DNA of 64,000 nt from Ustilago trichophora (lineage: Eukaryota > Basidiomycota > Ustilaginomycetes > Ustilaginales > Ustilaginaceae), in contig OOIN01000002.1 of the NCBI GenBank assembly GCA_900323505.1, positions 558,001-622,000 on the forward strand, given 5' to 3'. The position numbers were made by a program, and so were the translations under genes. Shown one piece after another: positions 15,918 to 19,712 of the stretch (the stretch's first letter is position 1; every line of letters starts with the position of its first letter). The notes under the pieces were generated by a model that searched no databases, was not told the DNA's origin, and was given only the letters and a program-made list of their open reading frames with translations.

Positions 15918-18900
15918 TTACTTGTCCCATGCTACGCGGCCTCCGGCAAAGACATAAGGATAGGCCGTCTGGTAGTAGTTGACAAACGTGCGTCGACCTG
16001 CAATCGATGGTGCCGTTGCATAGCTGCCACCAAGCACCACGCTGTGCTTGCCATCGAAAAAGTCCGAGCTGTAGCCAGGGTACAGTGCCGAATTCTGGAA
16101 GCCTTCATACTCGGCGAACACGGTGCTCGTCCACTCCCATACTCCTCCGTTATGACCCGGCAGCAGTGTGCCGTCAGAGTCATATCGCGGCAAGCTGGCT
16201 GGCACTGGGTGCCAGTTTCGGAAGCCTACGTTCGAAGACGGCGCAGCCTGGCCCTGAGTCGGATTCTGCGAGCCTCGGCGCTTCGTGGGCTGTGTCGTTG
16301 CCTCACTTTCCGAACTGGTACCCGGACCATGCATCGAGATTCCAGGCGGGTGGATTTCGGTCTTGAGCACACGTCGGGACTTGTTCTGTGGCTTTGGAGC
16401 GTTGGTGTTCTCCGTCACATAGAATCGACGAAGCATCATGATGGCCTCATCACGAAGGTAGCCACCCACCGATTCGTAGCCGGGTGAGCTTACAATCGCG
16501 TCATCGTCATGAAGACCAAGCACGCTGCCGTTGCCTCCGAAACGCTCGTTTCCGGCACCAAACACGACGCGTTGGATGCCAATCTGTCGAAGCGCCGCTC
16601 CACACATGATGCAGGGCTCGATCGTGACGTAAAGCGTGGTATCCTTGAAAGGGTTGTCTCCTTCAGGACCCGAGTGAGGCGCAACCGCAAAATCGGCTGC
16701 GGAGGGAGGTAGGATAGAAAGAATGTGATCAATGGCCTCGAGCTCCGCATGCCTGGTAGCGTTGAGAAGCTCGTTGGTGCGGTTACGTCCACGAGCGATG
16801 ATCTCACCCTTTCGCACAAACACGCCACCCACAGGGACCTCGTTGGCATCCAGCGCCTCCTGTGCCATGGCAAGTGCCTCTCGCATCCACTTGAGGTCTT
16901 CCTCCGACTGCTCCTCAATCGGGACGTACCGAACAGCGGAGCCACGGACGGGTGGCGCCTGCTTGCCAGGAGGGTCAATGTCATTCGCCTCGGGCTCTGC
17001 CTTTGCCGAGTCTCGGTCGAAAGGAGGCACCGTCAAGTCAAGTACCAAAGCCTCTGGTGGAGCATCCATGAGCTTGCGAAGCTCTGCGTGGGAAGGAAGT
17101 CGGCCGCCTTTCCATGCAGCGTAGGCGGAGAGCTGCTTGCCTGAAGCCTGGACGGGCCAGTGTTGGGCTGTCGCCATGTCGACAGGACCGTAGAAGGTAC
17201 GAATTGAGTAGCCTTCTCCACTATCGCTCTTGAGCCATGAGGCGGGAGCGTCCGCACTATTCGTAGCTTTGAGGAAGTCAAGATATTGAGCGTTCGAGAT
17301 GGGCAACGCCGAGATGGAGAATGACTTGGTCTCGACTTGTCGTCGAGGATGCTCATTGTCCCAGCCAAACTCGGGCTGGCCAAGCTGCATGTTGAGTTCT
17401 CGAACGTCACTTGTCGGACGGGCCGCAATGACATCGAAGTCTCGCGTATCGTCGTCGTCATGCCCGAGCTCTACAGACGAGGCCTCAAAGTGGAAGCGCT
17501 GCTCCAAGGCTCGACGACCACCACGCTTCTCGTACTCGCCTTGCCACCGCTTCGACAAAGTAACCCAATCCGGCGCCATGAAGCCGGTGGGAGGCTTGGT
17601 GTTGGGAGACTGGATGAGCATGTACAGCAGGGTCTCAAGATGGAGGTTGACGTGCTCGAGTGTCATCCACAGCATCCTCGCGAGCCTACGATTCATGACC
17701 AGATCACCACGACCAACGTCGTCGTAGATCTGCTGTACACGTCCCTGCACTGTTTGCTGATACTTGAGAATCTCGTCGAGCATGGGCCAGTCTTCTTTGC
17801 AGGTGGGCACTTCGCTGTGCGGATTGCACTGAGTGACATCATCCATGTGCGGGTCAATGCCACGCTCAAAGATGGCGGAAAAGCGGTCGTTGGTGTGAGC
17901 CTGCTTGAGATACGTGGCAACATGGATGTCGACAAAAGCAGGAATGTGGCCGAGGTAGAACAGGCAAATGTGACGGAGATCAATGGGCTTTTCGTGCAAT
18001 TTGTCTCGAGGGATCATGGTCAAGGTGACGCAGTTCCAGGCATCCCAGACTGTCTTCCAGTCTCGCAGGCTAGGCAGACCGAGCATAGCGGCCTTCTGAG
18101 CCATTTCGTCAAGGTTGCTGCCTCCCCAGCCATCGTCGATCTTGGTCGCTCCTTGAGGCTGGCTTTTCTGCGAGCTCACGTTCGAGGCAAGCGATACGAC
18201 ATCAACGCCAGAGTTGGAGAAATGGAAGCTCGGTTTCTCGACGAGCCAGATGTCGTACCGTTCGGTCTTGTCGCTCCAGCGCTGGACGACACGGAGACCA
18301 GCATAGTCGAACAGGTTGAGAGTCTCACGCTCGCCAAATTTGTAACTTGCCTCCATGTGGATGAGCTCGCCTTTCTCGATCTTGATCGGCTCGGTCAAGC
18401 CTGGAACTCGGATCTCCTGCGCTTCCTTGGCGCGATAGTATGATTCGTGACGACCTTCACGGGCGTTGTAACGGTCAAAATACTCGAATTTTCGACTATG
18501 GATGGCATTGCCGCCAAGCGCACGATCGGCATGGTCGAGGCCATTCATAATAAAGTCGCGCGTGAGACCTGCCGGGTCATTGTAGGCCAATGCGACATCA
18601 GAAGGTTTGTTGCGGCGATCGATGGAGATGAGCATGGTGTCACCGGGACGCATGCTTTCGCGTGCCGTCTTGGCGAGGAACTCGGCGGCGGACTTTCGAT
18701 CAAAGTTACCGATGCTAGAGCCGAGCCAAAGAAGGCATCGCTGACCTTCGACTTGGGCACCGGCAGCTGTCGAAGGACCTTGAAGTCCGCCTCTGCCAAT
18801 GAAGTCGAGGCCGGCGTCGTAGGTGGCCCACAAGCCATTGAGACCGACCTTGCCGCCGTGGATGGTCCACGCAACTTCGTCGCCGATAGTAGCTTCTTGT

Positions 18901-19712
18901 TGTCGCAGATCGCGCAATGTGCGTTCCAGCTCGGCTTTGTCAAGGTCCAAAGCATAATAGTGGACGCTGGGACCGCCTCCGGCAAGCGCTGGCAGGAGCT
19001 TGAGCGCGCGAAGGAGATGGATCGTCTTTTTGAGAGAGCCGGCACCGAGCTCCACAAGGGATCCTGCGCCCACAGCTCGGTCGCCGTCAAGACCTTCTTC
19101 GGCATTGACTCCGCCGTTGAACCTGCCCACGTCGCTGTCGCCCCACCTCTCCTTGGTGGAGGCACCCGCATCTCGCCGAGGGGGAAGGTGATTCTCCTTC
19201 GGAGCTTCGTTCTGGTTGTACTGAGGAGCCTGTTGATGTCCTGAGACGACACCCGACGGCTTCTCAGTTGCTGTGGTTGGGTGACCAAAGATCCTGAGCG
19301 CGATCTCGGGACCATGATCTTTGAGAATTTGCAGTTCGGCGTTGTAGAGGTAGTATTCGGGAGCCGCGGTCAGCTTGTCATAGAGAATGAGACCCTGCTC
19401 GTCGTAGAGGATGGTTGTTGGCAACGTCTTCCTATAGGCGTACTTGAGATCCTCGGGGTCATTTTCCTTGCCAGGAATGACGAGTTGGTTGGCTTGGAGT
19501 CCCGAGATGATTTCAAGTCGGAGCTGATCGTCGGTCGAGCTGCTGGAAAGGCTGCCAGCACTGCCCGAATAAAGGTCGATGACGGGAGCACTGCTAAGCT
19601 TGGCAGCTGTGTCGGCGCCGTGTACCTTGGACATTGTCTTGTTTGGAGCGTCGGTCTTTAGGAGAGGAGAATTGGCATCGATTGGAATAGCTGCTACAGC
19701 GGCTGGAGCCAT
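15918..19712 (-). CDS. EGT1: Egt1 ergothioneine synthase with an embedded Tad2-type tRNA adenosine deaminase (1264 aa)
   Basis: Egt1 trimethylates histidine to hercynine and then couples it to cysteine with oxygen. Residues 57-500 are the EgtD-type methyltransferase (ELGAGSLKKT at 221-230, GSSIGNFDR at 331-339), interrupted by a low-complexity insert at about 145-217. Residues 540-720 are the DinB-like iron domain, with His589 and the HxxxHxE triad His687/His691/Glu693. The sulfatase-modifying-factor-like domain begins at about 790, reaches GGRLPSHAELRK (869-880), and resumes at NVGFRNWHPVP (1161) to the end. Between these, residues 886-1160 hold a whole deaminase. It has HAE at 988-990, PCIMC at 1033-1037, NERFGGNGSVL at 1055-1065 and a basic tail NAPKPQNKSRR, all as in Tad2/ADAT2, which deaminates A34 of tRNA with Tad3. 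The frame is open throughout. Usual Egt1 is about 850-900 aa. Confidence 0.93.
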   Translation of the reverse strand: MAPAAVAAIPIDANSPLLKTDAPNKTMSKVHGADTAAKLSSAPVIDLYSGSAGSLSSSSTDDQLRLEIISGLQANQLVIPGKENDPEDLKYAYRKTLPTTILYDEQGLILYDKLTAAPEYYLYNAELQILKDHGPEIALRIFGHPTTATEKPSGVVSGHQQAPQYNQNEAPKENHLPPRRDAGASTKERWGDSDVGRFNGGVNAEEGLDGDRAVGAGSLVELGAGSLKKTIHLLRALKLLPALAGGGPSVHYYALDLDKAELERTLRDLRQQEATIGDEVAWTIHGGKVGLNGLWATYDAGLDFIGRGGLQGPSTAAGAQVEGQRCLLWLGSSIGNFDRKSAAEFLAKTARESMRPGDTMLISIDRRNKPSDVALAYNDPAGLTRDFIMNGLDHADRALGGNAIHSRKFEYFDRYNAREGRHESYYRAKEAQEIRVPGLTEPIKIEKGELIHMEASYKFGERETLNLFDYAGLRVVQRWSDKTERYDIWLVEKPSFHFSNSGVDVVSLASNVSSQKSQPQGATKIDDGWGGSNLDEMAQKAAMLGLPSLRDWKTVWDAWNCVTLTMIPRDKLHEKPIDLRHICLFYLGHIPAFVDIHVATYLKQAHTNDRFSAIFERGIDPHMDDVTQCNPHSEVPTCKEDWPMLDEILKYQQTVQGRVQQIYDDVGRGDLVMNRRLARMLWMTLEHVNLHLETLLYMLIQSPNTKPPTGFMAPDWVTLSKRWQGEYEKRGGRRALEQRFHFEASSVELGHDDDDTRDFDVIAARPTSDVRELNMQLGQPEFGWDNEHPRRQVETKSFSISALPISNAQYLDFLKATNSADAPASWLKSDSGEGYSIRTFYGPVDMATAQHWPVQASGKQLSAYAAWKGGRLPSHAELRKLMDAPPEALVLDLTVPPFDRDSAKAEPEANDIDPPGKQAPPVRGSAVRYVPIEEQSEEDLKWMREALAMAQEALDANEVPVGGVFVRKGEIIARGRNRTNELLNATRHAELEAIDHILSILPPSAADFAVAPHSGPEGDNPFKDTTLYVTIEPCIMCGAALRQIGIQRVVFGAGNERFGGNGSVLGLHDDDAIVSSPGYESVGGYLRDEAIMMLRRFYVTENTNAPKPQNKSRRVLKTEIHPPGISMHGPGTSSESEATTQPTKRRGSQNPTQGQAAPSSNVGFRNWHPVPASLPRYDSDGTLLPGHNGGVWEWTSTVFAEYEGFQNSALYPGYSSDFFDGKHSVVLGGSYATAPSIAGRRTFVNYYQTAYPYVFAGGRVAWDK
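16398..16922 (-). other. TAD2: Tad2/ADAT2-like deaminase domain nested inside Egt1
   Basis: These coordinates cover residues 931-1105 of the Egt1 frame. The first helix reads WMREALAMAQEAL, the usual start of Tad2 proteins. Zinc ligands are His988, Cys1034 and Cys1037, and the catalytic glutamate is Glu990. NERFGGNGSVLGLHDD is the Tad2-type loop rather than a cytidine deaminase loop. No stop codon follows the domain until the Egt1 stop, so any product starting at Met943 (ATG at 16886) would also carry the C-terminal part of the Egt1 sulfatase-like domain. Family membership is seen; activity and partner (Tad3) are inferred. Confidence 0.9.

Follow-up and report, generated by a model that had tools for sequence, protein, structure and literature searches.

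A Tad2-type tRNA adenosine deaminase nested within the ergothioneine synthase Egt1 of Ustilago trichophora and related smut fungi

In Schizosaccharomyces pombe Egt1, Neurospora crassa Egt-1 and the homologues of Exobasidium (P0017) and Sympodiomycopsis (P0027), an EgtD histidine methyltransferase, a DinB-like domain with the iron-binding motif HX3HXE (PMC4020840) and an FGE-like domain follow one another in identical order. The tRNA adenosine deaminase Tad2 (ADAT2), as found in yeast (7bv5), human (3dh1) and Exobasidiomycetes (P0123, P0124, P0129), is encoded by a separate short gene and has free ends. The window analyzed here, a stretch of 64,000 nucleotides of Ustilago trichophora (contig OOIN01000002.1, positions 558,001 to 622,000), holds a gene, Egt1-Tad2, with the same order of Egt1 domains. 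In contrast to plain fungal Egt1, it also encodes a deaminase that shares HAE, PCxMC, NERFGG, the basic tail and the fold with standalone Tad2 but is tethered at both ends inside another enzyme. We consider it likely that an ancient domain insertion joined EgtD, EgtB and Tad2 in one polypeptide that serves both pathways.

Two described systems come close. Fusarium FgTad2-FgTad3 resembles the present case in having a Tad2 with an N-terminal extension and a Tad3 partner. However, that extension comprises 112 amino acids and arises through alternative starts (PMC11087585), whereas the nested Tad2 lies within a metabolic enzyme as an internal domain. In the Ustilago maydis Egt1 homologue UM00197, both the methyltransferase and the FGE-sulfatase domain contain long non-homologous inserts, whose function was called unknown (Pluskal et al. 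2014, PMC4020840). UM00197 is probably the same gene as Egt1-Tad2, although no U. maydis protein was identified by name among our matches. The excerpts of that paper do not identify the insert as Tad2, and no paper naming the nested gene as Tad2 was found in the open-licence PMC literature, where long result lists were viewed in part. Ergothioneine itself is made by smut yeasts including A. flocculosa, P. hubeiensis, P. graminicola and U. maydis (PMC11993508), with A. flocculosa also covered in PMC10858013.

Architecture of the Egt1-Tad2 gene

The gene is a single ATG-to-stop frame of 1264 codons without internal stops. Pfam and Protein Data Bank (PDB) searches order its domains as EgtD methyltransferase, DinB-like domain, first FGE-like half, Tad2 and second FGE-like half. 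Its features, in window positions, are as follows (pLDDT, predicted local distance difference test).

15918..19712, minus strand: entire Egt1-Tad2 nested gene, 1264 amino acids, one frame
18213..19517, minus strand: EgtD-like histidine methyltransferase region, residues 66-500 (Pfam 214-492)
19074..19256, minus strand: low-confidence, probably disordered stretch within the methyltransferase, residues 153-213 (model residues 88-148, pLDDT <50)
17631..18017, minus strand: DinB-like iron domain, residues 566-694 (HX3HXE at 687-693, 17634-17654)
17076..17387, minus strand: FGE-like/EgtB domain, half 1, residues 776-879 (Pfam)
16938..17030, minus strand: 5' flexible linker, residues 895-925 (model residues 830-860, pLDDT <50)
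16335..16937, minus strand: complete Tad2 deaminase, residues 926-1126 (HAE 988-990, 16743-16751; PCIMC 1033-1037, 16602-16616)
16236..16382, minus strand: 3' flexible linker and Tad2 basic tail, residues 1111-1159 (model residues 1046-1094, pLDDT <50)
16269-16280, minus strand: RRxS motif in the 3' linker, residues 1145-1148 (RR.[ST] conserved in 13/15 nested homologues)
15921..16232, minus strand: FGE-like/EgtB domain, half 2, residues 1161-1264 (GVWEWT at 1190-1195; EgtB-IV 8vig_A match)

Pfam assigns the histidine methyltransferase to Methyltransf_33 (214-492, E 1.2e-74). The DinB_2 match at 566-694 (E 5.6e-4) falls under its curated cut-off; the iron motif reads HVNLHLE at residues 687-693, and EH...HLE fits 15/15 nested homologues. 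The FGE-sulfatase match is split into two stretches, the best at 776-879 (E 2.6e-25), and the EgtB-IV structure 8vig_A aligns with residues 1153-1260, the EgtB C-terminus. Between them lies dCMP_cyt_deam_1 (937-1052, E 3.1e-22). With the whole protein as query, yeast TAD2 (7bv5_A, residues 939-1123, E 1.2e-42) is the top PDB match, followed by human and mouse ADAT2; bacterial TadA (8.2e-19) and cytosine deaminase (1.4e-6) score far lower, so that the nearest relatives are Tad2 proteins. These matches agree with the sequence-only reading, made before any database search, that one frame runs through EgtD, DinB, FGE, Tad2 and the Egt1 C-terminus, and their limits bear out the boundaries it had drawn at residues 880, about 931-1120 and 1161.

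That reading had also placed the deaminase inside the catalytic domain, as a loop insertion rather than an end-to-end fusion. Loop lengths, described below, and the structural model favor a loop insertion. As to the catalytic domain, the FGE-like half is indeed split, but in the predicted structure the two parts of the EgtB fold come together around the insert, leaving Tad2 attached by a disordered linker on either side. Against EgtB-IV 8vik_B the model aligns over 373 residues (target 419) spanning the insert, as expected of a complete FGE-like sulfoxide synthase domain in two halves. Because the modeled FGE-like half closes in this way, both enzymes can be whole despite the split.

Distribution and origin of the insertion

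A homologue search with residues 850-1264 returned 297 proteins, the best 120 of which were listed and comprised 15 nested and 105 non-nested sequences. Within this set, the nested form occurs in U. trichophora, Sporisorium graminicola, Kalmanozyma brasiliensis, Pseudozyma hubeiensis, U. nuda, Testicularia cyperi, Thecaphora frezii, Pseudozyma (Anthracocystis) flocculosa and Violaceomyces palustris; the four taxa checked fall in three orders of Ustilaginomycetes (Ustilaginales, Urocystidales and Violaceomycetales). One nested record labelled Cichorium endivia is probably contamination. Both catalytic motif sets are intact in all 15 nested proteins, including HAE and PCxMC with the catalytic Glu, whereas only one of the 105 non-nested rows has HAE...PCxMC, namely P0039, which is not an Egt1. 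RR.[ST] is missing from P0010 and P0015. Since a second genomic copy on contig C1 and the 15 nested homologues share the architecture, the gene is very unlikely to reflect chance similarity or an artefact of assembly.

The loop between ELR and NxGFxxWHP spans 277-299 amino acids in 15/15 nested proteins. In plain Egt1 it measures 12-17 amino acids in 59/105 non-nested rows: 17 (n=18), 16 (2), 14 (33), 13 (2) and 12 (4). A first loop pattern missed 54 of these 105 rows, and a looser one matched 63. Plain Egt1 was seen in Exobasidium and Sympodiomycopsis (Exobasidiomycetes), Jaminaea, Ceraceosorus, rusts and mushrooms. Standalone Tad2 was found in Exobasidiomycetes, including Tilletia, and in Malassezia among the best 120 of 1162 matches; among these, no standalone Tad2 from the other nested-gene species appeared. 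Sympodiomycopsis has both a plain Egt1 (P0027) and a separate Tad2 (P0123), on contigs of equal length (4,498,260 bases) that are perhaps one and the same. The N-terminal tail RGS..YVP of the standalone P0123 and P0124 also precedes the nested Tad2, and the standalone C-terminal tail LKTE(I/V)xPPG(I/V)SMH also follows it, which argues that a nearly whole coding sequence was inserted.

Phylogenetic analysis comprised alignment A1 (80 rows), a Tad2 tree and an insert-free Egt1 tree. The Tad2 tree covers 35 of the 120 listed matches, those with a species name being basidiomycete and P0011 omitted; long branches were flagged, and the base of Ustilaginomycotina is not settled. The Egt1 tree has 48 rows, after omission of P0011, rows shorter than 800 amino acids and rows not chosen, and its outgroup does not form one side of a branch. 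Nested Tad2 sequences form one clade among the Ustilaginomycotina rows (support 98/97), and they group with Exobasidiomycete (including Tilletia) and Malassezia Tad2, apart from other basidiomycetes at 100/99. The Egt1 tree likewise recovers a single nested clade (Shimodaira-Hasegawa-like approximate likelihood ratio test 95). Branching is the same in both: Violaceomyces first, Thecaphora and A. flocculosa next, then Testicularia, then the rest. P0121 and P0128 are the only two of the 120 listed matches to fall inside the nested clade, and with them the nested rows need three changes. As candidate standalone smut Tad2 genes they were rejected, because each contains Egt1 sequence and is a fragment of a nested gene.

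The concordance of the two trees points to a single insertion of a native Tad2 gene followed by shared descent. An alignment of Egt1 orthologues had been proposed as a way to date the event, and loop lengths and trees now place it in the ancestor shared by the Ustilaginomycetes sampled, whose native TAD2 was inserted nearly whole into the FGE-like half of its Egt1, at a surface loop some 17 residues long. A bacterial or otherwise foreign deaminase acquired by horizontal transfer is hardly credible: the nested Tad2 groups with Exobasidiomycete and Malassezia Tad2 (in a tree without bacteria), yeast TAD2 outscores TadA, and both tails of standalone Tad2 have been kept.

Two naming matters touch this family. 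The U. trichophora record P0001 is named 'related to TAD2', a name that overlooks the Egt1 part. P0022 bears the name tRNA-specific adenosine deaminase 2 even though it is a plain Egt1 that lacks the deaminase domain; the name was probably transferred from the nested gene.

Gene copies, the Tad3 partner and gene products

The assembly searched comprises 38.8 Mb in 45 contigs. The C1 copy of the nested gene has the same architecture and 95% identity, and the Egt1 copies on C1 and C2 differ at a synonymous divergence (dS) of 0.27. This divergence, together with the pairing of the deaminase matches described below, points to two divergent gene sets in the assembly. Published genomes of U. trichophora measure 20.7 Mb (PMC4966473; PMC8951962), and the 38.8 Mb with two gene sets looks like a hybrid or mixed genome. 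Between window and C1 copies, Nei-Gojobori counting gives a ratio of nonsynonymous to synonymous divergence (dN/dS) of 0.084 for the whole gene, 0.065 for the methyltransferase, 0.145 from DinB to FGE and 0.040 for the FGE C-terminal part. Tad2 is the most strongly constrained part, with one nonsynonymous and 35 synonymous changes (dN/dS 0.008).

A 186-residue Tad2 query yielded four matches in the assembly: both nested copies (100% and 99% identity) and a pair of distant deaminases on C23 and C20, with 31-33% identity over 98 residues. The latter was rejected as a second Tad2, as HGE replaces HAE and the C23 copy reaches 30.6 bits against the NCBIfam TadA cut-off of 150. Both members of this pair (L005, L006) are short deaminases with a hydrophobic, signal-like N-terminus and HGE/PCTMC. 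No Tad2 besides the two nested copies was found in this six-frame search of the 45 contigs, which could miss an intron-broken gene and depends on an assembly that may be incomplete. That this is the only Tad2, which the sequence-only reading had left conditional, agrees with the assembly as far as it reaches, in either genome copy, and the opposite outcome, a separate Tad2 together with lost deaminase residues, was not observed in the assembly or the 15 nested proteins.

Deaminase-family matches in the assembly number 14 and form seven pairs (E up to 10). The remaining pairs are dCMP-type, cytidine-deaminase-like, Rib2-like, short deaminase and Tad3; the first two are presumably such from their motifs. 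In the Rib2-like pair, a PAP2 phosphatase-like domain and the deaminase share one open frame (L009:1343-2923, minus strand, C24; copy L010, C19), and the deaminase of L009, the copy examined, matches 7drz at 1.1e-21.

It is extremely improbable that the nested deaminase has decayed and is carried along while inosine 34 is made by another enzyme, given the dN/dS of the Tad2 part, HAE and PCxMC in 15/15 nested proteins and the lack of a second Tad2 in the assembly. No supporting evidence was found for this explanation or for horizontal transfer.

Tad3, which the sequence-only reading had proposed to look for, is present; it follows a SET domain in a single fused reading frame (L031:1820-3949, C2, and L032:1894-4008, C1, both minus strand). 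The closest solved match of the SET domain is S. pombe Set7, and the Tad3 part has no catalytic Glu. The SET motif occurs in 19/21 listed SET-Tad3 homologues, the named ones being smut relatives and one Cichorium record; an HAE in P0259 sits elsewhere in the protein, away from the Tad3 position. The SET-Tad3 model is weak (mean pLDDT 60). A34 tRNA genes make up 17 of 60 scored places. Judging by the motifs, Tad2 would pair with the SET-fused Tad3 to form inosine 34 in A34 tRNAs, while the Egt1 part would be expected to produce hercynine and hercynylcysteine sulfoxide. The predicted architecture, with the EgtB fold closed round the insert and Tad2 tethered by two disordered linkers, would accommodate both.

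Alternatively, the gene may yield two products: full-length Egt1-Tad2 and a shorter Tad2-bearing isoform for tRNA editing, arising through internal initiation of transcription or translation or through proteolysis at a linker. Fusarium FgTAD2 offers a precedent, with an internal transcription start, an alternative start codon and an N-terminal extension that weakens FgTad3 pairing (PMC11087585). Both linkers are predicted to be disordered, and KWM, a possible start, stands ahead of the first deaminase helix in 15/15 nested proteins. However, no stop follows Tad2, so an internal-start product would still carry the C-terminal FGE half. The WM pair is also present in standalone Tad2 (P0123, P0124, P0127, P0129, P0137 and P0146), so its conservation needs no start function, and the alternative Met at residue 882 (KLM) is Leu in P0012-P0015. 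We regard a separate short isoform as rather unlikely.

Splicing could instead remove Tad2 and give plain Egt1 beside the full-length protein. The consensus motifs applied were GTRNG at the donor, CTRAY at the branch point and YAG at the acceptor, which would miss degenerate sites. A single GTRNG donor in the window copy (codon 928; codons 880-930 scanned) is in phase with one YAG (codon 1132), and bare GT/AG gives 44/84 in-phase pairs. Nevertheless, the C1 copy lacks an acceptor and has no in-phase GTRNG-YAG pair, and CTRAY is absent from codons 1060-1162 in both copies. With a single in-phase pair in one copy, none in the other and no CTRAY, splicing out of Tad2 is very improbable.

Several points weigh against an ancient insertion yielding one bifunctional polypeptide. 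The single polypeptide and its two presumed activities are deduced from the genome sequence and a predicted model. The placement of domains relative to one another in that model is provisional, and Foldseek root-mean-square deviations are 10.8-16.8 for the EgtB rows shown, whose alignments cross the insert; low values are those of VIA-align. Loop lengths cover 63/105 non-nested rows, and four rust rows read 49 amino acids where the looser pattern overshot, the printed sequence having a short loop. The Tad2 tree does not settle the sister group of the nested Tad2. The lack of a standalone Tad2 applies to this assembly and to the best 120 of 1162 database matches, and the 60 tRNA places scored come from 993 first-look candidates.

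Possible coupling and entrenchment

A single polypeptide requires no functional coupling. A stronger proposal is that the state of Egt1 controls how active Tad2 is, through iron, histidine, sulfur or redox status or a kinase acting at RRxS, a putative kinase site, and that Egt1-Tad2 and SET-Tad3 form one assembly joining wobble editing, sulfur metabolism and a SET methyltransferase. This is doubtful. Nonetheless, peroxide raises an ADAT-type editing site in Fusarium from 0.68% to 5.12% (PMC11169179), which makes a connection between redox state and enzymes of this class conceivable.

Ergothioneine-deficient S. pombe is reported to have no vegetative growth defect (PMC4020840). In the nested gene, an upstream stop or frameshift in Egt1 would also kill the essential deaminase, and a gene dispensable in fission yeast would likely become hard to lose. 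Such a constraint on the loss of Egt1 likely follows from the layout, with or without functional coupling.

The naming of these genes can also be corrected: besides the two records mentioned above, the 2014 paper recognized the Egt1 homologue without putting a name to its insert. More broadly, Egt1-Tad2 is a natural case in which a gene essential in other fungi is lodged in a gene dispensable for fission yeast and has been retained by the members of a fungal class that were sampled. It offers a way to test how the fold of one enzyme accommodates another, foreign enzyme in its entirety, whether nesting may lock in a dispensable pathway, and whether wobble editing may respond to redox state.

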